A DNA stretch of 64,000 bases from Sediminispirochaeta smaragdinae DSM 11293 (lineage in GTDB: Bacteria > Spirochaetota > Spirochaetia > DSM-16054 > Sediminispirochaetaceae). The stretch is from assembly GCF_000143985.1 (NCBI RefSeq), contig NC_014364.1, forward strand, positions 4,092,001-4,156,000. The letters are read 5' to 3'. Numbering within the stretch: position 1 is the first letter of the stretch; each line of letters begins with the position of its first letter. The notes under the pieces were generated by a model that was not told the DNA's origin, did no database searches, and saw nothing but the letters and a program-made list of their open reading frames with translations. A program made the position numbers and the translations under genes. This document shows, in pieces, positions 21,827 to 41,031 of this stretch.

Positions 21827-22756
21827 TTACTGAACGACAGGATATCCCTGGTTCGCCCAACCAGAGGGGGCGTTCGACCCCATACCCATACCACCTTTCA
21901 GACTGACAGCATCGTAGCCGAGCACTCTGAGAGCGGCAACGGTCTGACCGGCGGTCTGGCCTGTGTAGCAATAGACAATCAACTTCTTATCGGCGGGGAG
22001 GCTGGCAAAGTTCTCCTGCATGCCCTTTCCCCATGGAATGTTGATGGCGGTGTCGATATGCCCCTTGGCGTAATCGGCGGCACCTCTGACGGAAACGAAC
22101 TGCACCTGATCATCACCGGAATCGAGAATCTTCTTGGCATCCTCTTCGCTGATGATGTTGTTGGTATACATGGTACCCTTGGTGTTTGCAAGATCGGCAA
22201 AGTAGTCCTCGACCATCTTTTTGACGGCAGGATCGTAGCTGGCGCCACTTTTGCCGGAAAAGTCGTTTGCAGTGGTTTCAAGGGATGCATCAACCCCTTC
22301 CACCTTGGAGATGCCGAGATTGAAACCGAGGTTAACCGACCGGGCCTTCACACCGGCAAAGTTAAGTACGGCAACGGTCTGACCGGCGGTCTGGCCGGTA
22401 TAGCAGTAGACCATTACAGGCTTGTCGGTGGGGAGGTTTCCCAAAACTTTTCCCAGTTCGGGTCCCCAGGGAGCGTTGATAGCACCCTTTACATGCCCCT
22501 TGGCATAATCGGCGGCCTGACGAATGTCGAGAACAAGCATGTCGTCACCGGCTTTTACCATATTGATAAAATCGGCCTGGCCGATCTTGTAGATATGATC
22601 CGGCATATTGGCAAAATAGTCATAGACAAGCTGGTCGATATCGACGCTACTCTCAGCGGCCGCAGGAGCGGCTTTTTCTTGTTGCCCCTCGGCAAAGACT
22701 GCAGTTGCAAGACAAAGCATCAATGCAACCGTAAGCACCTTTTTCATGGCTTTCAT
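21827..22756 (-). CDS. Exported double-rhodanese sulfurtransferase-like protein
   Basis: 309 residues with a signal peptide ending at VFAEG and a Q/A-rich linker, then two rhodanese domains, each with the active-site loop CYTGQTAG (Cys118 and Cys263). Both cysteines are kept, unlike thiosulfate sulfurtransferases, where only the second domain is active. The ATG at 22756 is chosen because GAGGAG lies 6 bases upstream; the longer frame to 22771 overlaps the ribosome site. It follows the other rhodanese gene by 29 bases on the same strand. A periplasmic role in sulfur or thiosulfate metabolism is inferred from family and location. Confidence 0.88.
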   Translation of the reverse strand: MKAMKKVLTVALMLCLATAVFAEGQQEKAAPAAAESSVDIDQLVYDYFANMPDHIYKIGQADFINMVKAGDDMLVLDIRQAADYAKGHVKGAINAPWGPELGKVLGNLPTDKPVMVYCYTGQTAGQTVAVLNFAGVKARSVNLGFNLGISKVEGVDASLETTANDFSGKSGASYDPAVKKMVEDYFADLANTKGTMYTNNIISEEDAKKILDSGDDQVQFVSVRGAADYAKGHIDTAINIPWGKGMQENFASLPADKKLIVYCYTGQTAGQTVAALRVLGYDAVSLKGGMGMGSNAPSGWANQGYPVVQ

Positions 22757-22785
22757 ACACACTCTCCTCAAGAATAGTTGTTTTA

Positions 22786-23709
22786 CTATGAACCGTCCTG
22801 GCTATTCAGGGCGGGAAGTTCCGATTTTTCCGGCATTTGCACGGGAAGCGACGGTTTACTAGACCATTCAACCCAGGCGCCATCGTAAAGTTTCAGATTT
22901 CGATACCCTGCATTGTAGAGGGCGACATAACTCTGAGCCCCACGGATGGAGGTTTTACAGAACATGATCACCGTCTTGGAGGGATCGATCTCTTTTTCCA
23001 GATAATCGATTCTGATTTGCTGGACCGGACGATAGGTGTTGTCGGAAAAGTTGTTGTTCTCGTAGTCGATATGAACAGAACCGGGAATGGTACCCGCTTC
23101 TACCTCTTCGGTGGTCCGGGTATCGAGAATCACGGTATTGGAATCGGGATTGTTTACCTGCGCTTTCACATCGGCCAGGGTGGCAATCATGGATGTATCG
23201 AAGTCCTTCGCAGTATAGGAACTCGAAGCCGGCGTAGTTCTCCCGGAACTCATTGCCGAACCGGCAGCCTTCATCGCGGCAAGCCCTCCGCTAATCACTT
23301 TTACCTTTTCAGGATCATGGCCATAGGCGACCATGGTCCACCACAGCCTGGCGGCATCCATATTCTTGCTGTCGTCGTAGGCAACGACGGTGGAATCGTT
23401 GCTTATTCCACGACTCTGCATCACCTTCTCGAACTGTGCCTTGTCGGCAACAAGATTAGGATAGGGCGTGTTTACTACAATATCGGCTCGGCCAATATTG
23501 ACAGCCCCATCCGCATGTTCTTTGTTATATTTGACTCCTGTCTGAGCGTCCACAAGAACAACACCGCCCTTCTGCACCATGGCGAGAGCATCCTTTGCAT
23601 CAATAATCTGGGAACCGCTTTCTGCGAAATGGGGTCCGCCACAGGAAATGAACCCAACGGCCGCAACGATCGCAAGAACGGCTATCGGCATCTTCCGACG
23701 AAACTTCAT
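22786..23709 (-). CDS. Rhodanese-family sulfurtransferase lipoprotein
   Basis: 307 residues in the thiosulfate/3-mercaptopyruvate sulfurtransferase layout: an inactive N-terminal rhodanese domain, where the Cys position reads Asp (AYDDSKN, about residue 112), and a C-terminal domain with Cys251 in MFCKTSIRG. The N-terminus ends in GFISC (Cys23), a relaxed lipobox, so it is probably anchored in the periplasm or outer membrane. A GGGAGG ribosome site precedes the ATG. It is the first gene of the operon. The loop CKTSIRG differs from the usual CGSGVTA, so its acceptor cannot be predicted. Confidence 0.88.
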   Translation of the reverse strand: MKFRRKMPIAVLAIVAAVGFISCGGPHFAESGSQIIDAKDALAMVQKGGVVLVDAQTGVKYNKEHADGAVNIGRADIVVNTPYPNLVADKAQFEKVMQSRGISNDSTVVAYDDSKNMDAARLWWTMVAYGHDPEKVKVISGGLAAMKAAGSAMSSGRTTPASSSYTAKDFDTSMIATLADVKAQVNNPDSNTVILDTRTTEEVEAGTIPGSVHIDYENNNFSDNTYRPVQQIRIDYLEKEIDPSKTVIMFCKTSIRGAQSYVALYNAGYRNLKLYDGAWVEWSSKPSLPVQMPEKSELPALNSQDGS

Positions 23710-30300: not shown

Positions 30301-30689
30301 CCCTGCCCCTTTGTATCCGCCGTACCGATCAGGGCAACCCCGGCAGTCACCAGGATCATGCCCGCAAGCGTTCCCCAGCTTAAGTCTTCGCCGAGAAAGA
30401 GCGCGGCGGCAAGGGGCACCAGGCAGTAGCCGAGGCTCATCACCGGATAGGCAAAGGAAAGGGAAAGATAGCGCACAATCAGTACCCAACTGACGCCTCG
30501 TGCGCCGAGGAAACAGTAGAGGGCAAGGGTATAGATGTTGAACGGCGAGGCACCGGATGCAATGGCACGCCCGGAAAGGGCCGCGGAGAGCTGTCCGGCT
30601 GTCAGCAGAAGAAGCGGAACGGCCAAGGCAATTCCATGAGACCTGTGAGAGGAGTGAGCTAACGACGCTCCTCTATTGCTCCTCGTCAT
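30297..30689 (-). CDS. EmrE-like small membrane protein, second half of pair
   Basis: 130 residues with four hydrophobic helices ending LVTAGVALIGTADTKGQG. The ATG at 30689 (MTRSNRGAS) is chosen; the longer frame to 30803 lies wholly within ftsK. Its start overlaps the ftsK 3' end by 17 bases. Together with the preceding gene it most likely forms a lipid-carrier flippase. The closest functional analogy is ArnE/ArnF, inferred from the pairing and from the GT2 enzyme next door. Confidence 0.72.
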   Translation of the reverse strand: MTRSNRGASLAHSSHRSHGIALAVPLLLLTAGQLSAALSGRAIASGASPFNIYTLALYCFLGARGVSWVLIVRYLSLSFAYPVMSLGYCLVPLAAALFLGEDLSWGTLAGMILVTAGVALIGTADTKGQG

Positions 30690-33093
30690 CACCCCGGCCC
30701 TCTCGATAACGATCGGGAACGTGGATAATCTCCCGGGGCTTGGAGCCGTTCTGGGGTCCGACGATTCCCCGCTCTTCCATCTCTTCCACGAGCCGTGCGG
30801 CACGATTGTAGCCGATCTTTAGTCTGCGCTGCAGGTAACTGGCGCTCGCCTTTCCTGCTGTGGTAACGATCTCCAGAGCCTTGTCCATGAGCGGATCATC
30901 GATTCCACCACCGTCAAAGAGGGTATCCGAATCCTCGTCGTCGATAAAAATTTCGTCGTCGATATATTCGGGCTCACCAAGAGTTCGTACATAGGCTGCA
31001 ATACGTTCGACTTCCTCTTCGCTCAGATAGGCACCCTGAATTCGGGAAGGCACAGGATCCCATGCGCTGGTAAAGAGCATGTCCCCGCGCCCCAGCAGCT
31101 TCTCGGCTCCCACGGCGTCGATGATGATTCGGGAATCGAACTTACCCGCCACCATGAAGGCGATCCTGCTCGGGATGTTGGCTTTGATCAATCCGGTGAT
31201 GACATCGATGGAGGGACGCTGGGTTGCCAGCACAAGATGGATGCCCACCGCGCGGCTCATGGCAGCAAGACGTGCAAGGGTGGATTCAAGCTCCTTCCCT
31301 GTTGTGGCCATGAGGTCGGCAAACTCGTCGATGATCACCACGAGATAGGGAAGCGGTCTGGTGGCCAGACGTTTTTTCTTCACCTTTCGGTTGTAGGAGC
31401 GAATATCCCGGACACCGAGGGAGTCGAGCAGAGCATAGCGGCGCTCCATTTCATACAGGCAGTACTGAAGTGCCTGAAAGGCCTTCTTCGGCTCGGTGAT
31501 GACCGGTGTCAGGAGGTGAGGAATATCGTTGTAGAGCTTCAACTCGACGATCTTCGGGTCGATGAGGATCATGTTGACCTCATCGGGGCTCCTCTTGTAC
31601 AAAATCGAACAGATAATCGAATTGACGCAGACCGATTTTCCCGAACCGGTGGCTCCCGCAATCAGCAGGTGAGGGGTCTGCACCAAATCGATGATCTGGG
31701 TTTCTCCGGTGATATCCTTGCCGAGGATGATGGGAACCTCTTTGTCGGAGTTTTCAAAGCTCTCATCCTCGATCATCTCCTTAAAACTGACCAGGGCCCG
31801 TTTTCGGTTCGGAACCTCGATTCCTACTGCGTGTTTACCCGGTATGGGAGCAACGATTCTGACCCGGCTGGCTGCCAGACGCAGGGCAATGTTGTCGGCA
31901 AGATTGACGATCTTCGAAAGCTTGACCCCGGGCGCAGGAAGAATCTCAAACATGGTGATAACCGGTCCCTTCCTGATACCGGTCACCTCGGCCTGAATCT
32001 TGAACTCCCGTAGGGTATCTTTCAGAATTTCGGCGGACTCCCGGGTTGCCTCGTCTATCACCCAATATTTGCTGTCAGGATATTCATCGAGAAGATCATC
32101 CCGGGGCACCTCATATCGCATGATATTCCGTGCCACTGCCTGGTGAGAGGCGGGAACAGGGAGGACTTCCTCTTGCTCATCGTGCGCTTCATCTTCCTCG
32201 TCATCCTCATATTCCTCATCCTCGGGAACAAGGACCTCCTCGTCTTCATCATCGTCTTCACTTTCATCAAGGTCGATATCATCTATCTCCTCGTCATCTT
32301 CCAAACATACTTCGTCGGAACGGAGAGAAGCAAAGTCGAGATCGACGGGTTCCTCCTCGACATCTTCCTCAGGTTCCAATGAAACAGGCAGGTCATTCGG
32401 CAGATCATTCGATTCGGCAGGAGGCTCCTCCGCATACTCCTGATCTTCGACACGTTCATCTTCTAACACATGCTCATCTGTGGGAACCGGGGTCTCGGAA
32501 ATCTCAGGCAGTGGGGAAGTATCAACCCCCTTAAGCCGCCTTCTCTCAAACTCCTCCCACCAGGCATCGTCGTCCTCCTCTTCAGGCTCATCGGAAGAGG
32601 GCTGAGGAAGCGCAATGATACCCTTCTTGCGGGGACCTTTTTTTTCCCGGTCCGAAACCTCCGTGGTACGGCCGGAGAAGAGCTGTTGGGCGACAAGGTA
32701 AATGACGATGAGTTCGGCAAGTAGAAGGAGAAAAAGGATAAAGGAGCTTCCCCCCGAGCCAAAACGAGAAAGAAAAGCGTCCGCAGCCGCGGAACGGGGT
32801 GCCGGTTCGATGAGCTGCAGCCAAAACCCCGCGGTGACCATCGGCACCACGCCGGCGGTTGCAACGAAGAGGGGAAGTGGCGCAAATCCCTTCCGAAGTA
32901 AAAGGGCCGCACAAAAAAAGAGATAAGCGGGGATATACCAGGCTGCAATCCTGAAACCGGCGACAAGGAGCTCGCCGGAAAAGATAAACCACCCAGAGAC
33001 CCCTGATGTGGAAAGAGCCATGGAAACAGATAGGTAAGCGGCCGCAAGTATGAGGACAATGGCTGTTGCCATAGTAGGCTTAGAAAAACGCAA
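30673..33093 (-). CDS. ftsK: FtsK/SpoIIIE DNA translocase
   Basis: 806-residue septal DNA pump. Four membrane helices occupy about residues 8-130, then a very acidic linker of about 200 residues (runs of Glu and Asp around 185-320), and then the RecA-like motor: Walker A GATGSGKSVCVNS (about residue 480), Walker B VVIIDEFADLM, and a C-terminal gamma domain (about 740-790) that in the family reads KOPS sites. The acidic linker makes long antisense shadow frames. Full length for the family. Confidence 0.95.
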   Translation of the reverse strand: MRFSKPTMATAIVLILAAAYLSVSMALSTSGVSGWFIFSGELLVAGFRIAAWYIPAYLFFCAALLLRKGFAPLPLFVATAGVVPMVTAGFWLQLIEPAPRSAAADAFLSRFGSGGSSFILFLLLLAELIVIYLVAQQLFSGRTTEVSDREKKGPRKKGIIALPQPSSDEPEEEDDDAWWEEFERRRLKGVDTSPLPEISETPVPTDEHVLEDERVEDQEYAEEPPAESNDLPNDLPVSLEPEEDVEEEPVDLDFASLRSDEVCLEDDEEIDDIDLDESEDDDEDEEVLVPEDEEYEDDEEDEAHDEQEEVLPVPASHQAVARNIMRYEVPRDDLLDEYPDSKYWVIDEATRESAEILKDTLREFKIQAEVTGIRKGPVITMFEILPAPGVKLSKIVNLADNIALRLAASRVRIVAPIPGKHAVGIEVPNRKRALVSFKEMIEDESFENSDKEVPIILGKDITGETQIIDLVQTPHLLIAGATGSGKSVCVNSIICSILYKRSPDEVNMILIDPKIVELKLYNDIPHLLTPVITEPKKAFQALQYCLYEMERRYALLDSLGVRDIRSYNRKVKKKRLATRPLPYLVVIIDEFADLMATTGKELESTLARLAAMSRAVGIHLVLATQRPSIDVITGLIKANIPSRIAFMVAGKFDSRIIIDAVGAEKLLGRGDMLFTSAWDPVPSRIQGAYLSEEEVERIAAYVRTLGEPEYIDDEIFIDDEDSDTLFDGGGIDDPLMDKALEIVTTAGKASASYLQRRLKIGYNRAARLVEEMEERGIVGPQNGSKPREIIHVPDRYREGRGDDEEQ

Positions 33094-33164: not shown

Positions 33165-33959
33165 CTATAGAAGAATGAACCCCAGTATACCGGCGGGAAT
33201 GAGATAAAAGGAAAAGTAGTAAAGCTTCCCTCGCCGAATCAATCTCAAAAGCAAAACAAGACTCGCCATGCCGACGATAAAGGCCGAGAGGAAACCGGCA
33301 ATAAGCGATGAGGGGGGGACCGTCGCCAGCAGAGATCCGACGTCGCGAAGTTCGAGTAGCAAAGCCCCGGCAATGGCTGGCAAGCTGATAAGAAAGGAAA
33401 ACTCCCCGGCGCTTTCCCGATTCATGCCGGAGGCCAGGGCCGCCGAGATGGTAATCCCCGAACGGCTTATGCCCGGAAGGACCCCAAGTCCCTGGGCCAA
33501 ACCGGTAAAAAGGCCGTGCCGAAGGCCGAGTCCTTCATAACCGATATTTCCAGAAAAGCGTTTCGCACCAAGCAATATGAGACCGGTAACGACAAGAAGG
33601 GCAGCAACGGCCCTAGGAAACCGGCCGACATCCAAACCTTCGAGGAAAAGGCCGAGGACTCCGGTTACCAGTGTGGCTGCAAGGATGATAAGAATCAAAT
33701 GCAAATTCTGATTATCTTCTTCATCCCGTTTGCCCGTGATCAGATGGCCGAGAGCGAGGAACAGTCTTCCAACCTTTGCACGGAAAACCCATATAACAAC
33801 AAAAAGGGTTGCAACATGAAGAATAACATCAAACAGTATCGGAACATCTTCAAGATCCATAAAGTATTTCATGAGAGCAAGATGTCCTGAGCTTGAAACA
33901 GGAAGGAATTCGGTTACCCCTTGTAATGCACCCAAAAAAAGTGCCTGTACCATACTCAT
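33165..33959 (-). CDS. uppP: Undecaprenyl-diphosphate phosphatase UppP/BacA
   Basis: 264-residue membrane enzyme that recycles the polyprenyl carrier for peptidoglycan and glycan synthesis. Motif GVTEFLPVSSSGHL near the N-terminus and GISRSGITI in the middle are diagnostic, with about eight helices. The ATG at 33959 has AAGGAG 8 bases upstream; the longer frame to 34145 would run into the transglycosylase gene. Its carrier-recycling role fits the nearby lipid-linked glycosylation and murein genes. Confidence 0.95.
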   Translation of the reverse strand: MSMVQALFLGALQGVTEFLPVSSSGHLALMKYFMDLEDVPILFDVILHVATLFVVIWVFRAKVGRLFLALGHLITGKRDEEDNQNLHLILIILAATLVTGVLGLFLEGLDVGRFPRAVAALLVVTGLILLGAKRFSGNIGYEGLGLRHGLFTGLAQGLGVLPGISRSGITISAALASGMNRESAGEFSFLISLPAIAGALLLELRDVGSLLATVPPSSLIAGFLSAFIVGMASLVLLLRLIRRGKLYYFSFYLIPAGILGFILL

Positions 33960-33981: not shown

Positions 33982-36237
33982 TCAGCGTTTCGGGAAAAAG
34001 GTATCGACCGGCCAGAGGGGCCCCTCCGGAGAGTCGGCCCGGTAAAGATAGCGATAAATGGAGGTTGAGACAAGGAGCTTTCTTCCGTAATACTGGGTTT
34101 CGGCAAAGGGGATGGTCTCGGCAAACAGATCATCGGGAAGATCACTATTCGAACTACGCCAGCGTCTGACTCGTGTCAATCCCCCGTTGTAAGCAAAAAG
34201 CGCTTCGGAAATATTATCCGTACGTCCGGCAAGGTGAGCAAGGTACCAGGCGCCAATGGACAGATTCAGACGGGGATCATGAAGATCCTCATTCGAGGGA
34301 ATCTTCAGCCCCATTCTGCCGGCAACATCCCTCGCTGTAGAAGGCATCAACTGGCTCAAACCAACGGCTCCTACACGACTGTAGATATCGGGAGTAAAAT
34401 GGCTTTCTTCCCGAACCAGGGCATAAAAGAGATTCTCCTCAAGGCCTTCTCGTTCCGTCACCTCATGTACATAGGCCCGAAAGGGACGGGGATAAAGGAT
34501 ACGGAGCTCTTCATTGCCGCTTATCCCTCGCTCATTTGCAAAACGATCGAAACGGCGGATTGCTTCAAGATGATGCCCCTCATGGGAAAGTCCCTTTACC
34601 GTGTCGATGATGAGACTCCGGGGAGGAAGAAAACCGCAAGACTCCAGGCGAGACAGCTCCTTTTCGGCTTCGAGAGAAAAGCCGTGATCGAGCAGTCCCC
34701 GGATAACTCTCATGCAACAGGGGAACGAGGATTCTTCCTGTGTAGCCTCATCTCGACCTTCGGCTGCCGGATAAAAAAAGGCGTAATCGGCCTCCTCTTC
34801 ACCGGAAAAGCGCTCCAAAGCCGAAGCAGCAAGAATACGATAGTAGCGCGCCGTTGTCCCGGAAGGAGGCAGATCGAGGATACGCCGAAAAAGCGTCTCT
34901 TGCATCCCGTCCTCGGGCAAAAGAGCAAGCTGGCGACCTCTGGCAGCCAGATAGTAGTATCGTGAGGCCGAAGCAGCGGGAAGATCCCTGCCAAGGGAAC
35001 GGGCAATCGTATCGATCAGGGGCCACTCGCTCTGCCGGAGCAGTTCATCGAGAAGAGCACCAAGAGTATCGTCGAAATAACGGGGATCAACCATGTTGCC
35101 GAGGAGTTGAGGAATGGCGGATGCGGCACGATGAGGATCAGCGTGAACCAGAGAATCGAAACGGTACCACACAATACGCTGCATATGCAGGGAATCGAAG
35201 GAGGCCGCCTCGGCCGCGCTATCCACCGCCTCGTCGAACAGAGGAAGCGCATCATCGTATTGTCCGGCTCTTCTTGCCAGAAAACCGGCGGCCTCCAGGA
35301 GCGCCGCTTTACGCTCCGGGAAAGGTTCTACAAAAGGAAGAAGCTCAAGCGTATGATCGAACAGGAGCCCTGCGTCGCTACCGTAGCCACAATTTCTGAC
35401 AGCCGATAGATACAGAGGGGTTCCGGCGATCTCTGCACCGGCATCGCGAATCGCTATAAGAAATGTCGAAAGCACCTCTTTTCTGCTGCCCCCGTTCAAG
35501 GCCAGCAGAAGATCGGCAATCGCGTGTATCTCCCTATCCCGAGAAAGGTGAAGAGAGCCGCCACCATTGATAATCGAGGCCAAACCTTCCCCTGTCAGCT
35601 CCCCGTCATTCGAAACGAAGGCCTGAAGCAGGGAGGATGTTTCCCGCTCCGTCTCATATCGAGCCAAAGCCAAGGTAAGGGCGAGTCTTTGAGATGATGC
35701 TGGGTCCGCGTCGAGGGGAAGTTCTTGTTCCGCGGAGGCAAGGATCTCCATCCAGAGCCCCAAAGAGGCTCTGGTTTCATTAATCATCGTACGTAAACGA
35801 AGATCGGGATCGATTTTCTCTCCAGCGGAAAGCGACACAAGCTTGTGCAAAAGAATATGCACCTGCTCGCCGTTCCCCCCGGCCGCAGAGGCTTTTTGCG
35901 CTTGATCAAAATACAGCAGTCCGAGCCGATACCGTGCTTCCCGTCGAAATTCGGGAGAGGCGAGGTTAGAAGCCTTTATGAAGAAGTTTTCTGCGTTGGT
36001 CTGTTCCCCACAACGAAGCTGATCCATCGCCACAAAAAAAAGGGCGTCTCCCTTCGTCTCGTCGGATAGCCGAACAGACGCCGTTTCGATATCTCTCGAG
36101 GGATAAAGGGCGGAGGTCCACAGTATAAAAAAAAGAAGAAGGAAAAAAAGCAGACTATTTCGTCGGAATAAATATTTTTTGTTCGGCAAAGATGATATCT
36201 GGATTATTGATGTTGTTTTCTTCCGCAATTTGTCCAT
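33982..36237 (-). CDS. Soluble lytic transglycosylase (SLT) with helical N-terminal domain
   Basis: Cleaves peptidoglycan glycan strands. The C-terminal SLT domain has the catalytic Glu in FYALVREESHF, followed by GAVGLSQLMPSTA and the SIGAWYLAHL and ALFAYNGG segments. The long N-terminal part is alpha-helical with TPR-like repeats, as in Slt70, after a hydrophobic signal (LLFFLLLFFILWTSA). The start is uncertain: an ATG at 36237 and a TTG at 36189 both lie inside the end of the LysM gene and neither has a good ribosome site, so translational coupling is likely. It sits 22 bases upstream of uppP. Confidence 0.88.
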   Translation of the reverse strand: MDKLRKKTTSIIQISSLPNKKYLFRRNSLLFFLLLFFILWTSALYPSRDIETASVRLSDETKGDALFFVAMDQLRCGEQTNAENFFIKASNLASPEFRREARYRLGLLYFDQAQKASAAGGNGEQVHILLHKLVSLSAGEKIDPDLRLRTMINETRASLGLWMEILASAEQELPLDADPASSQRLALTLALARYETERETSSLLQAFVSNDGELTGEGLASIINGGGSLHLSRDREIHAIADLLLALNGGSRKEVLSTFLIAIRDAGAEIAGTPLYLSAVRNCGYGSDAGLLFDHTLELLPFVEPFPERKAALLEAAGFLARRAGQYDDALPLFDEAVDSAAEAASFDSLHMQRIVWYRFDSLVHADPHRAASAIPQLLGNMVDPRYFDDTLGALLDELLRQSEWPLIDTIARSLGRDLPAASASRYYYLAARGRQLALLPEDGMQETLFRRILDLPPSGTTARYYRILAASALERFSGEEEADYAFFYPAAEGRDEATQEESSFPCCMRVIRGLLDHGFSLEAEKELSRLESCGFLPPRSLIIDTVKGLSHEGHHLEAIRRFDRFANERGISGNEELRILYPRPFRAYVHEVTEREGLEENLFYALVREESHFTPDIYSRVGAVGLSQLMPSTARDVAGRMGLKIPSNEDLHDPRLNLSIGAWYLAHLAGRTDNISEALFAYNGGLTRVRRWRSSNSDLPDDLFAETIPFAETQYYGRKLLVSTSIYRYLYRADSPEGPLWPVDTFFPKR

Positions 36238-37090
36238 AAAGCCAAGGGGTACTATAAAAGGAAGAGGATATGTCCCAGAGTGTATCACCCCAGCGGATTC
36301 TGTACCAGACCCCCTCGACCTCAACCCTCACCGTTTCTCTCTCGGGAACAGGTGCCTGCTCGACCGTCGCCTGCGGCACGGGAACAGGCACGGGAGGAGA
36401 TTCCGCAACGGGTGCCGTCTGTTCCACCTCGTTTCCTGACGCCCGAAGGGGAAGAGCCTTTTCTCCCGGAAGGTAGTTCATCAGGCAATAGATAAGAAGC
36501 CCGATAAAGGCAAGGGAAAGGATCACAAGCAGGGTGATAAGCAGGGGGCGAATCCGACTTCTCCGGGGTACTTCCTCTTCAAGGGGATAATCATCAGATG
36601 TTTCGGAGAAAAAATCCTCGGAAGGAGGAACATCCTCGTCCGAATCACCATCCAATTCGTCAAAGGGAAAATCCGGTTCAAATCCTTCGGAAGGTTCCTG
36701 TGAAAGATCAAAATCAGGAATGTCGTACGCCGAGGGAGTTCCGTTGTCGTCGATTCGTACCGAAAGTGTCCGTTTTTCCCCGGACTGCCCCTCACTCGCC
36801 TCGGCCGTAAGGTTCCCATCATCGTCGATTCCAACGACCAGTTCGATTTCAGGACTTCCTTTTGCCGCGGCCGGAATATTTTCGATCAAAAGGCTGCCTA
36901 TATAACTGGCACTCTCGATCTCTTCTCTACCACGATACAGATCGATCTGGACATTGGTTTGTCGATCATTTACCGTCGTCAAAACCAAACGCTTTTTGGC
37001 CCGTTTTCCCTCTTCCATGATGGGATAAAACGAACCGTCAGCGATCTTTATTCCGATCCTGGAATCTGCCACTGTTTTTCTCCTCTTCAT
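36155..37090 (-). CDS. Hsp70 substrate-binding-like domain fused to membrane helix and LysM
   Basis: 311 residues from the ATG at 37090. The first about 115 residues resemble the beta-sandwich substrate-binding domain of DnaK/Hsp70: LVLTTVNDRQTNVQIDLYRG, a GSLLIENIPAAAKG loop, and IELVVGIDDDGNLTAEA follow the DnaK order. There is no ATPase domain. Next come an acidic Pro/Glu/Asp linker (about 120-175), one membrane helix (about 183-205), a Pro/Val/Glu stretch, and a C-terminal LysM domain (WGDTLWDISSSFY to KIFIPTK). The topology implies that the Hsp70-like part is cytoplasmic and LysM binds peptidoglycan outside. Its stop lies inside the next gene. Function unknown. Confidence 0.8.
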   Translation of the reverse strand: MKRRKTVADSRIGIKIADGSFYPIMEEGKRAKKRLVLTTVNDRQTNVQIDLYRGREEIESASYIGSLLIENIPAAAKGSPEIELVVGIDDDGNLTAEASEGQSGEKRTLSVRIDDNGTPSAYDIPDFDLSQEPSEGFEPDFPFDELDGDSDEDVPPSEDFFSETSDDYPLEEEVPRRSRIRPLLITLLVILSLAFIGLLIYCLMNYLPGEKALPLRASGNEVEQTAPVAESPPVPVPVPQATVEQAPVPERETVRVEVEGVWYRIRWGDTLWDISSSFYSTPWLYGQIAEENNINNPDIIFAEQKIFIPTK

Positions 37091-37173
37091 TCCAAGCCTA
37101 TAACCGCCACGAAAGCTTGTCAATAAAAAGGGCTTCCTTGACGCAGGACCAATTGCAAATCATAATACTGGTC

Positions 37174-38535
37174 ATGGAAACCAATCTGTTTCTGCTGCTC
37201 CCCGTTGCGGTCGTAGCAATAGCAATCGTTATACTTTTCGTCATAAGCGCAGGCAAAAATAAGGGGAACGGAGACAAAAAGAACAAAAAATTCAAAGGTA
37301 AAGATTCCAATGCAATCATTCGGGAGGCAAACAAACGCCTCAGCCAGAATCCAAAAGATGCGGAAGCCCTTCTCGCCCTTGCCGAGGCACACTTTAACGA
37401 CGGAAGATTCGACAAGGCGCTTCGTACCTATAATATTCTGATCGATCTCTGTGCAACCAATAAGGAACTAAACGAATTCGAGATCAACCTTCGTTATGCC
37501 ATCTCCGCAATGAAACTTCAAAATTTCGAAGAGGCATATAAAAGCTTTTTGATCTGTAAGACGATGAAACCGGACGGTTTCGAGGTGAACTTCAACCTCG
37601 GTTATCTCGAGTTTAGGAAAGGAAATTTCGAGAAGGCGGTCGTTCTGCTTCAATCTGCGCGGCAAAAAGATCCGGAACACGGTTCCATGCTCAAATATCT
37701 CGGTCATTCCCTTTTTAAAATCACAAAATACAAGGATGCTGCAGGAGCCTTACGCAAGGCACTGGAAATCGAGCCGGAAGATAAGGAGAGCCTCTTTGTC
37801 CTTGGCCAGGTCTACCATAACCTTGGCCAAAACGATCAGGCCCTTCGAATCTTCAGCCATCTTCGTCCAGATCCGAATCTCGGCCCCAATGCGGCCCTCT
37901 ACGCTGGAACCATTCATGTCGCTTCGGGTCAGTTCGATAAGGCGGTTCTCGATTTCGAAATCGGCCTGCGCCATAATAATATAAAGAAAGAGACGGCCCT
38001 GGAGCTGAAATACCGACTTGCCGCCTCCTATGCGAAAAAGCAGGATATGGGAAGGGCCTTGAAACTCCTTCAGGAAATTCAGAAAACGGCTCCGGGCTAC
38101 CGTGATGTTCCTGCCCTGCTGGAAAAGTACGCGGAGCTTAATTCAAATCGAAATCTTCAAACCTATCTTATCGCTCCAACCAGTGATTTTGTTACCCTCT
38201 GCAGAAAATTAACGAACACCATCTTTCCCGGAGCAAAGGTCCAGATTACCGATATATCGGTTACGGGAAATGACTATGCCGATATCCTTGCGGAAATAAG
38301 TACCAGGAAATGGGAAGATGTGGTACTGTTTCGATATGTAAGAACAAACGGCCAGGTGGGAGAACTGATCCTCCGGGATCTCTATGCACGTATCAAGGAA
38401 CTACGAGCAGGTAGAGGATTCTGTCTCTCGGCGGGAGAGTTTACCGAAGGTGCAAAGCAGTTTGTCGAAGCCCGTCTCATCGACCTCGTGGAAAAGGAGG
38501 GGCTTATGCGAAAGATGAAGGAGATCGATCGGTAA
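37174..38535 (+). CDS. Membrane-anchored TPR protein with degenerate Mrr-like restriction endonuclease fold
   Basis: 453 residues from the ATG at 37174, which places the single N-terminal membrane helix (about 4-25) at the start. A Lys/Asn/Gly linker is followed by about seven TPR repeats (about 55-310). The last 100 residues end with LRDLYARIKELRAGRGFCLSAGEFTEGAKQF and so resemble the Mrr-type PD-(D/E)XK domain, which typically has VRELYG...GIFVTTSGFTEGA. The catalytic QAK core reads LFRYVR, so nuclease activity is doubtful. Its 3' end overlaps rsmG by 32 bases in opposite orientation. Confidence 0.75.
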   Translation: METNLFLLLPVAVVAIAIVILFVISAGKNKGNGDKKNKKFKGKDSNAIIREANKRLSQNPKDAEALLALAEAHFNDGRFDKALRTYNILIDLCATNKELNEFEINLRYAISAMKLQNFEEAYKSFLICKTMKPDGFEVNFNLGYLEFRKGNFEKAVVLLQSARQKDPEHGSMLKYLGHSLFKITKYKDAAGALRKALEIEPEDKESLFVLGQVYHNLGQNDQALRIFSHLRPDPNLGPNAALYAGTIHVASGQFDKAVLDFEIGLRHNNIKKETALELKYRLAASYAKKQDMGRALKLLQEIQKTAPGYRDVPALLEKYAELNSNRNLQTYLIAPTSDFVTLCRKLTNTIFPGAKVQITDISVTGNDYADILAEISTRKWEDVVLFRYVRTNGQVGELILRDLYARIKELRAGRGFCLSAGEFTEGAKQFVEARLIDLVEKEGLMRKMKEIDR

Positions 38536-39175
38536 ATACCAGAAGGTTTCGCTCGCCTTTCAGCAGATTGCCGGAATCGGGAATTCCGACAATGCGAAGA
38601 TCTCCTTCCGGCCGCTGCCTTAGTTCCGAAAGCTGGCTTTGAAGCAGCTTTCGGGTTCCGGCATAGATAACGGCAGATCCTCCCGGAACCAGCCTACCTG
38701 CAAGGATGGGAAGGGCCTCGTTGACGGGCCGAAAGGCTCTGCACGTTGCAAGCTGCCATCGGGCCCCGAGGGTTTCGGCATCTACCTGGAGAATATGGAC
38801 CCGATCGGCAACCCCGAGCAGGGCAACGGCATTCTGCAGGAATCCGGCCTTACGCCCCGAACGCTCCACAAGGGTGTATTCATACCGAGGCAGAGCAAGG
38901 GCAAGGGGAATGGCGGGAAACCCTCCGCCGCTGCCGATATCCACAACACCGCTTCCAGGTCCCGGCAGCAGGCCGGAGGCTTCGAGCAGGGGCAAAGGAG
39001 CCAGTGAATCGTAGAGATGCCGAAAAACAAGCTCATCGACCGATTCCATCTTCACCAGTCCCACCTTGCGATTCCAGAACAACAGCTCCTTCAGATAGAC
39101 CTCACACTTTTGCGCCATTGAAGCATCGAAGGACCATGCCACGGCATCAAGCGCCTGTTTGATAAGCTCCCTCAC
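38504..39175 (-). CDS. rsmG: 16S rRNA (guanine-N7) methyltransferase RsmG
   Basis: 223 residues. Methylates G527 (E. coli numbering) in 16S rRNA using SAM. The Rossmann SAM motif VDIGSGGGFPAIPLALALP and the preceding NLVKMESVDE-like region fit GidB/RsmG. Its ATG overlaps the end of mnmG by 4 bases, the usual gidA-gidB arrangement. It converges on, and overlaps by 32 bases, the TPR protein gene. Confidence 0.95.
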   Translation of the reverse strand: MRELIKQALDAVAWSFDASMAQKCEVYLKELLFWNRKVGLVKMESVDELVFRHLYDSLAPLPLLEASGLLPGPGSGVVDIGSGGGFPAIPLALALPRYEYTLVERSGRKAGFLQNAVALLGVADRVHILQVDAETLGARWQLATCRAFRPVNEALPILAGRLVPGGSAVIYAGTRKLLQSQLSELRQRPEGDLRIVGIPDSGNLLKGERNLLVFTDRSPSSFA

Positions 39176-41031
39176 CGTCTTCTCCTGAGCATCACCATAA
39201 GAACGGCTATATCCGAGGAACGGACACCCGAGATCCTCGAGGCCTGTCCCACCGAGAGGGGCCGTATCTGTTTCAGTTTTTCCCGTGACTCATTGCTGAT
39301 ACCTTCGATGGTATTCCAGTTAAAATCCGCAGGAATCTTGAGCCCCTCCATACGCTGAAAGCGATCCACCTGCTCGTCCTGCCGCCTGATGTAGCCTTCA
39401 TAACGAATATCAAGGGCGGCACGACGGAGCCACTTGTCGGGAAACGCCTCCAACTCGGGCTGCAGCGGCACAAGCATATCGATAGAAACCTCAGGGACCT
39501 TCAAGAGATCAAGAAATTTCTTGCCCTCCTGACCCGAAAGGTCGAGACCAGCAGCTTCTGAAGAACGTAAACGCCTTGAGGCAAGGAGCTCCTTTATCGC
39601 CGCTTCCCCTTCGAGCCGCTTATTAAGGGCCTCCATCGCGTCATCGTTCTGTAATCCAATACGATGGCCGAGCGGCAAAAGCCGACGATCCGCGGTATCA
39701 TGGCGGAGATTGAGGCGATATTCGGCACGACTGGTAAACATCCTGTAGGGTTCCTCGGTCCCAAGGGTAACGAGATCGTCGATAAGAACCCCCGCATAGG
39801 CCTCGGCCCGGGAAAGTACCAGAAGGTCTTCTCCACGCATCAAGAGTGAGGCATTGATACCGGCAAGGAGCCCCTGACAGGCGGCCTCTTCGTAGCCCGA
39901 GGTGCCATTTGTCTGACCGGCAATGAAGAGACCCGCCACAGCCTTTGTCTGGAGGCTGGGGAAGAGCTGGCGAGGATCGATATAATCATACTCAACGGCA
40001 TAGCCGGGCCGCATAATAACCGCGCGCTCTAATCCCGGAACAGAATGGATAAACTGTTCCTGGACCCATTCGGGGAGGCTCGAAGAGATCCCGTTGAGGT
40101 ACATCTCCTCGGTATGGAGCCCTTCAGGTTCCACAAATATCTGATGCCGCTGGCGGTCAGGGAAACGAACCACCTTGTCTTCGATGGAGGGGCAATAACG
40201 AGGGCCTTTACCGACGATCTTTCCTCCGTAAAGGGGGCTTGTTCCCAAATTTTCGGAAATCAGCGAGTGGGTTTTCTCGTTCGTATAGGTAATCCAGCAG
40301 CTGCGTTCCGGTCGATCTATCGTATCATGGGAAAAGCTGAAAGGAAGCATCAGCTCGTCCCCTTTCTGCTCCTCCATTTTATCGTAATCAAGGGAAGAGG
40401 CGGCAACTCTGGCGGGAGTTCCCGTTTTCATCCGTCCAAGGTGAAAGCCCTTCGCCCGCAGAGCGCTGCCCAGTCCGATGGCGGCAGGCTCTCCAAGGCG
40501 CCCGGAAGAAGCTTCCCAGCTGCCGATGAAAACCTTTCCCTCCATAAAGGTCCCGGTGGTCAAGACCACCGAGCGGGTGGAAATCTCTTGTCCGCGATCG
40601 GTCCTCACCCCGACGATCCTTGCCCCGCCTAAGGCAATGTCCCCTTCGATGACCAAATCCGTCACCGTATCCTGGTAGAGATCGAGGCCGGGCTGTTTTT
40701 CAAGGGTCTCTTTCGCAAGAAGGTTGTAGGCAAATTTATCAGCCTGAGCCCTGGGAGCCTGAACAGCAGGGCCTCGACGCTGGTTGAGAATACGGAATTG
40801 GATCATCGTTGCATCGATAAGATGCCCCATCTCACCGCCCAGGGCATCAACCTCACGAACAATGTTACCCTTGGAAAGTCCGCCTACCGCAGGGTTACAG
40901 CTCAATCGGCCTATGGCATCGAGGCTCTGGGTGATAAGCAGAGTACGGTGGGAAAGACGGGCAAGGGCAAGAGCGGCCTCTATGCCGGCGTGTCCCCCGC
41001 CGATGACAACAGCATCGTAGTCACGAACCAT
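39172..41031 (-). CDS. mnmG: tRNA uridine 5-carboxymethylaminomethyl modification enzyme MnmG
   Basis: 619-residue FAD enzyme that works with MnmE to modify the wobble uridine of certain tRNAs. FAD-binding GGGHAGIEAALALARL lies at the N-terminus, SCNPAVGGLSKGNIVREVDALGG follows, and GYEEAACQGLLAGINASL marks the second nucleotide half. A helical C-terminal domain of about 90 residues completes the enzyme. It is 18 bases after mnmE and overlaps rsmG. Confidence 0.97.
   Translation of the reverse strand: MVRDYDAVVIGGGHAGIEAALALARLSHRTLLITQSLDAIGRLSCNPAVGGLSKGNIVREVDALGGEMGHLIDATMIQFRILNQRRGPAVQAPRAQADKFAYNLLAKETLEKQPGLDLYQDTVTDLVIEGDIALGGARIVGVRTDRGQEISTRSVVLTTGTFMEGKVFIGSWEASSGRLGEPAAIGLGSALRAKGFHLGRMKTGTPARVAASSLDYDKMEEQKGDELMLPFSFSHDTIDRPERSCWITYTNEKTHSLISENLGTSPLYGGKIVGKGPRYCPSIEDKVVRFPDRQRHQIFVEPEGLHTEEMYLNGISSSLPEWVQEQFIHSVPGLERAVIMRPGYAVEYDYIDPRQLFPSLQTKAVAGLFIAGQTNGTSGYEEAACQGLLAGINASLLMRGEDLLVLSRAEAYAGVLIDDLVTLGTEEPYRMFTSRAEYRLNLRHDTADRRLLPLGHRIGLQNDDAMEALNKRLEGEAAIKELLASRRLRSSEAAGLDLSGQEGKKFLDLLKVPEVSIDMLVPLQPELEAFPDKWLRRAALDIRYEGYIRRQDEQVDRFQRMEGLKIPADFNWNTIEGISNESREKLKQIRPLSVGQASRISGVRSSDIAVLMVMLRRRR

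Follow-up and report, generated by a model that had tools for sequence, protein, structure and literature searches.

We found that one gene within the window, the 64,000-nucleotide stretch of Sediminispirochaeta smaragdinae DSM 11293 DNA analysed here, encodes a protein in which a complete substrate-binding sandwich of the Hsp70 type, lacking the ATPase domain, is connected through an acidic linker and a single membrane helix to a LysM domain. Proteins of this family, for which we use the name HLM, have a conserved peptide groove, have lost the elements that couple Hsp70 to its nucleotide cycle, and occur only in genomes with flagellar genes. The reading that we prefer, at roughly even odds (about 0.5), is that HLM would act as a wall-anchored cytoplasmic docking hub at flagellar or envelope sites and not as a chaperone. 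The coordinates of the protein, its parts and its neighbours are collected in Table 1.

Table 1. Parts of the HLM protein and the surrounding genes, in positions of the window
Feature	Residues	Position	Strand	Basis or remark
HLM gene		36155..37090	(-)	311 aa; sandwich, acidic linker, membrane helix and LysM
Hsp70-type substrate-binding beta-sandwich, predicted cytoplasmic	11-116	36743..37060	(-)	Pfam HSP70, AlphaFold2, Foldseek/VIA, groove conservation
Acidic linker where Hsp70 has its lid, probably disordered, predicted cytoplasmic	117-182	36545..36742	(-)	
Short motif YDIPDFDL, [YF][DE][IVM]P[DE]F[DE][LI]	122-129	36704..36727	(-)	
Single membrane helix, predicted N-in/C-out	183-204	36479..36544	(-)	Hydropathy and flanking charges
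Pro-rich linker, predicted periplasmic	205-262	36305..36478	(-)	Sequence
LysM domain, predicted periplasmic	263-309	36164..36304	(-)	Pfam LysM 3.5e-9
Flagellar assembly lytic transglycosylase, BB0259 type		33982..36324 (ORF)	(-)	NF047373 8.4e-104; SLT Pfam 9.9e-29
UppP/BacA undecaprenyl-pyrophosphate phosphatase		33165..33959	(-)	Pfam BacA 2.3e-63
FtsK-type DNA translocase, end of the conserved block		30673..33093	(-)	Named from sequence; conserved neighbour
TPR protein with N-terminal membrane helix, divergent from HLM		37117..38535	(+)	Pfam TPR; synteny
RsmG		38504-39175	(-)	Named from sequence; synteny
MnmG		39172-41031	(-)	Named from sequence; synteny

Predicted fold and domain architecture

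An earlier note on this DNA had read the N-terminal half of the protein as the substrate-binding sandwich of DnaK, and profile, sequence and structure comparisons all agreed with it. HLM residues 13-116 matched positions 395-501 of the 599-position Pfam HSP70 profile (E = 1.9e-9; 36.7 bits against a cut-off of 20.6), the same stretch was matched by the NCBIfam DnaK and HscA models, and a phmmer search of the PDB returned Hsp70-family chains only among the matches listed (best E = 1.9e-8, residues 12-122). Residues 1-131 were modelled with AlphaFold2 from ten related sequences; the model displayed eight strands, with a pTM of 0.61 and, for most of the sandwich, pLDDT values of about 71-81. The top Foldseek matches of this model were all Hsp70 substrate-binding domains (E = 1.7e-7, probability 1.00, TM ~0.7 on the query), and VIA gave Z values of 9-14. 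The predicted sandwich is complete over residues 11-116, and the similarity spans all of it rather than a short segment, with pocket and arch positions alignable at about 22-28% identity to the solved domains. The remaining architecture also stood as the note had described it: the limits of the HSP70 match and the short length of the protein leave no ATPase domain, and a LysM domain lies across one membrane helix. Residues 263-309 matched the whole Pfam LysM profile (36.9 bits against a cut-off of 20.9), and a full-length AlphaFold2 model placed the helix at residues 181-206. This second model was poor beyond the domains (mean pLDDT 62), with low pLDDT across residues 208-257 and values below 50 over most of linker 117-182, 35% of which is D/E.

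That the resemblance is due to chance, or that the domain is what is left of a decayed Hsp70, might be suspected from the diverged members of one Borrelia-like and one T. pallidum-like genome, in neither of which Pfam HSP70 found a match. However, HLM profiles recovered both: one built without the Borrelia-like member still found that orthologue (7.2e-12), and the T. pallidum-like HLM, which lies outside the alignment, was matched at 7.4e-17. Profile, fold and independent family members thus agree, and the groove residues are under strong constraint. We consider such an origin extremely improbable, and groove conservation together with the family's distribution across Spirochaetia led us to reject it.

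Groove, coupling elements and linker motif

Groove positions, picked by hand with knowledge of the DnaK structure in an alignment of 31 HLM members, carried 3.16 bits compared with 2.40 for the rest of the domain (Mann-Whitney p = 2.7e-4). I14, the counterpart of DnaK I401, was kept in all 31 members, Q44 (DnaK Q433) and L37 (DnaK F426) in 30 each, and V47 (DnaK V436) in 27. The arch pair is A17/V40 in HLM versus M404/A429 in DnaK, and the charge differs at two groove positions, where K15 stands for E402 and K33 for H422. Judged from these residues, the groove would still bind peptides. The parts that serve nucleotide control in Hsp70 have gone: the VLLLDVTP interdomain linker was absent from the HLM rows of the alignment, the NTTIP loop, which has a part in Hsp70 coupling, was two residues shorter in almost all of them, and in the AlphaFold2 models the stretch from residue 114 to the membrane helix was free of any helix that could correspond to the alpha-helical lid. 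With ATPase domain, linker and lid missing and the NTTIP loop shortened, HLM, which unlike DnaK is also tethered to the membrane, does not belong to the Hsp70 chaperone family if the ATP cycle is taken as its definition, though the HLM sandwich is homologous.

The retained groove would also suit a holdase for flagellar or envelope clients, whose lidless sandwich would bind hydrophobic stretches of unfolded export substrates, such as flagellin or transglycosylase precursors, at the membrane and pass these on, either to the secretion machinery or to DnaK. The linkage with a flagellar transglycosylase (see below) is in keeping with this, as are the reports that DnaK binds flagellin and that its substrate-binding domain can act without ATP (PMC11816700). 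On the other hand, a lidless ATP-free domain would bind weakly and have no release step, the HLM linker is not a lid in the AlphaFold2 model, and a general holdase would hardly be expected to be anchored permanently in the wall. We regard this function as unlikely.

Just behind strand 8, where the DnaK lid begins, the linker carries a short motif whose core occurred 24 times, in 16 of the 31 linkers, where shuffled sequences gave an expectation of 2.3. The motif is a candidate groove ligand, in cis or between molecules, or else a docking motif for another protein. Should the groove bind the [YF]D[IVM]P[DE]F sequence within its own molecule or in an adjacent HLM, the protein would be a self-assembling clamp forming wall-tethered oligomers with no outside ligand. 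The enrichment of the motif, its position and its repetition (one rumen Treponema protein has six copies) all point in this direction, and precedent could be seen in the oligomeric BiP structures 7a4u and 7a4v among the PDB matches, in which the linker would fill the groove as a pseudo-substrate. Yet the motif is missing in 15 of the 31 members, including the Borrelia-like one, and neither the full-length AlphaFold2 model nor that of residues 1-131 placed the linker in the groove with confidence, making the clamp a rather unlikely arrangement. The sequence YDIPDFDL also recalls the DIPxFL tail of FtsZ; mimicry of this tail was not supported, as the FtsZ of the window genome ends in LGIPTVLRDRK and the Borrelia-like HLM has no such motif.

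Distribution and gene neighbourhood

The architecture had been called unusual, and it proved to be no one-off: a search across spirochaetes found full-length HLM relatives in most of 41 related genomes and the architecture conserved through Spirochaetia in the fixed gene order MnmG-RsmG-[divergent TPR protein]-HLM-transglycosylase-UppP-FtsK. Among 149 Spirochaetia genomes that were at least 90% complete, HLM was present in 99 of the 126 flagellated and in none of the 23 non-flagellated genomes, or, counted by family, in 30/35 flagellated and 0/4 non-flagellated families. Genomes were taken as flagellated when FliF, or in two genomes FliG, was present, and the figure of 99/126 is conservative in that four Borrelia-like genomes with weak matches were scored negative. 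The Fisher p value of 1.7e-13 describes an association and not a true error rate, the genomes being related. Three genomes elsewhere in the phylum, outside Spirochaetia, also contained the sandwich-helix-LysM protein, and FliF was found in all three. In three flagellated f26 genomes (G061, G073 and G096) HLM was lost cleanly: the transglycosylase was kept and lay too close to the TPR gene to leave room for it, indicating that HLM is not indispensable for flagella.

Pfam detected HSP70 in 23 and LysM in 27 of the 31 members, and for this reason the domain architecture may already be listed automatically in databases; a search of the openly accessible literature found no published description of HLM. 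The Borrelia-like and T. pallidum-like orthologues presumably correspond to the locus tags BB0260 and TP0042.

The note had also placed the gene beside a lytic transglycosylase and uppP, and both were confirmed in that order (NF047373, 8e-104; Pfam BacA, 2.3e-63). The transglycosylase is specifically the flagellar BB0259 type, and HLM lies immediately upstream of it in most Spirochaetia loci examined, including one in a Borrelia-like genome. In B. burgdorferi the periplasmic flagella require BB0259 to assemble properly, and the text of the paper that reports this makes no mention of BB0260 (PMC8517470). BB0259 is an enzyme, a lytic transglycosylase, whereas HLM is not. In the window the first ATG of the transglycosylase is at 36237, from which the overlap with HLM would be ~80 nt. 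Adjacency on the same strand, often with overlapping ORFs, and a LysM domain typical of wall enzymes would be compatible with HLM as an accessory of the transglycosylase, its periplasmic part presenting or restraining the enzyme and its cytoplasmic sandwich being a structural remnant. The strong conservation of the cytoplasmic groove and the several orthologues without LysM argue against this role, which we hold to be improbable.

Outside the class the TPR gene adjoined HLM in two of the three genomes, without an adjacent transglycosylase, and in the third neither gene was present in the 10 kb read; the association of HLM with the TPR protein is thus probably older than that with the transglycosylase. 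The C-terminus of the TPR protein in the window gave a weak match to an Mrr-like restriction-endonuclease fold (Pfam Mrr_cat, 5.8e-6). In the T. pallidum-like genome (1.14 Mb, one contig), HLM, transglycosylase and MnmG stand in a row. A few genes from this HLM are bactofilin-like and M23 peptidase-like genes, named from sequence (L091 13052-13492 and 13505-13999), the former of which would, from gene order, presumably be TP0048. Titz et al. linked TP0048 to motility through interactions with the FliS region (PMC2386257). Elsewhere in the window (21827-23709, minus strand), two adjacent exported or lipoprotein-like ORFs look rhodanese-domain-like by eye, and the S. smaragdinae genome paper has rhodanese-like protein among its keywords (PMC3035371).

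LysM was absent from the orthologues of the Borrelia-like genome, L050, L059, L061, L093, L099 and L100, which means that not every family member would be anchored in the wall. Five genomes (G010, G030, G035, G074 and G135) had two genes: one for a short protein of sandwich and helix, at the transglycosylase locus or the equivalent place, and one located elsewhere that adds LysM to sandwich and helix. The element that varies is LysM, and cytoplasmic sandwich, charged linker and membrane helix, in their predicted placement, are the constant core.

Other relatives were also noted. In one genome (G037), the protein at L070:2999-4225, near a MoxR-like gene, combined the family sandwich (profile 2.2e-16), a charged linker and a membrane helix with OmpA instead of LysM, repeating the HLM layout around a different wall-binding domain. 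Another (G142) contained two further diverged HLM paralogues (L095:2474-3736 and L094:3382-4341), one directly upstream of CheY-like and CheA-like genes and the other adjoining a HEAT-repeat/guanylate cyclase protein. A second, short Hsp70 of 486-568 aa, composed of an ATPase domain and a sandwich with the lid region reduced, recurs in spirochaetes (for example G000:C1:1702861-1704264 and L071, L072, L073, L074, L075, L076 and L034); in the Borrelia-like genome, which has a 503-aa short Hsp70, a short Hsp70 lies ~4 kb from the HLM orthologue. In a tree of 108 columns with low support, the HLM sandwich was nearest to these short spirochaete Hsp70s and not to DnaK, a lead towards an origin near them. 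The short Hsp70s differ from HLM in that they retain ATPase domain and linker and lack LysM.

Topology, known hub proteins and a possible role

HLM had no N-terminal signal sequence, and its membrane helix is preceded by the basic stretch RRSRIRP. Across 31 relatives the N-side flank was more basic than the C-side in most, the flank charges were about even in the rumen Treponema rows, and the Borrelia-like row was an exception. Missing signal sequence, basic N-side flank and the need of LysM for peptidoglycan together predict a cytoplasmic sandwich and an external LysM. The idea of a peptide-binding module tied to the cell wall therefore survives in part: LysM and helix provide an anchor, but the sandwich itself is predicted to be cytoplasmic, with only LysM at the wall. 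The linkers of rumen Treponema members (L039, L041, L042, L044 and L045) contain a Gly/Ala-rich hydrophobic segment of the VAAGVVAGAGLLAAAGIMA type, for example residues 154-172 of L039, and the topology of these HLMs would differ if the segment spans the membrane.

A comparable layout is known from HubP/FimV, in which a LysM in the periplasm and a membrane region are followed on the cytoplasmic side by an acidic, unstructured stretch and a client-binding TPR domain. The FimV LysM attaches to sacculi, and polar anchoring depends on it; HubP and FimV have also been linked to flagella and chemotaxis (PMC12918733). HLM, in its predicted topology, shares the LysM, the single membrane helix, the acidic cytoplasmic region and the cytoplasmic domain. 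In contrast to HubP/FimV, its domain order is reversed, with LysM at the C-terminus, and its predicted binding module is the Hsp70 sandwich instead of the FimV TPR domain. NCBIfam models gave no FimV match in HLM with E up to 1, and the C-terminus was LysM. The FimV C-terminal domain exceeded its cut-off in 0/12 spirochaete genomes, which is weak evidence of absence as it also did so in 0/14 control genomes. The proposed working principle of HLM resembles that of HubP/FimV; its parts do not.

In the docking-hub reading, HLM would be a one-pass inner-membrane protein whose cytoplasmic N-terminal sandwich, freed from nucleotide control, is connected by the flexible acidic linker and the membrane helix to a LysM that holds peptidoglycan. 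The groove would take hold of a partner in the cytoplasm by a short stretch in extended form or, alternatively, of the conserved [YF]D[IVM]P[DE]F motif in the linker of the same HLM molecule or one beside it. LysM would fix the captured complex at a site in the wall. Gene linkage and distribution point to flagellar or envelope sites as the place of action, presumably those on which the BB0259-type transglycosylase works. The extra paralogue beside CheY-like and CheA-like genes also speaks for the docking hub. Counting against it are the flagellated lineages that have lost HLM, the orthologues that lack LysM and the HLM genomes outside the class in which the transglycosylase is not adjacent.

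Spirochaeta smaragdinae SEBR 4228 is a motile spirochaete bearing periplasmic flagella (PMC3035371). More tentatively, the ATP-free, wall-fixed groove might serve as a landmark by which flagellar or division partners in the cytoplasm are positioned at sites of wall remodelling, similar to HubP/FimV but of separate origin and recognisable in Borrelia-type and T. pallidum-type genomes. If this is true, an Hsp70 peptide-binding module would have become a permanent, ATP-free anchor receptor, and HLM would be a candidate for the connection still missing between partners in the cytoplasm and the places in the wall at which periplasmic flagella are inserted. Since the Borrelia-like and T. pallidum-like orthologues are too diverged for standard annotation, the HLM family offers a testable role for genes that have stayed uncharacterised in well-studied spirochaetes.
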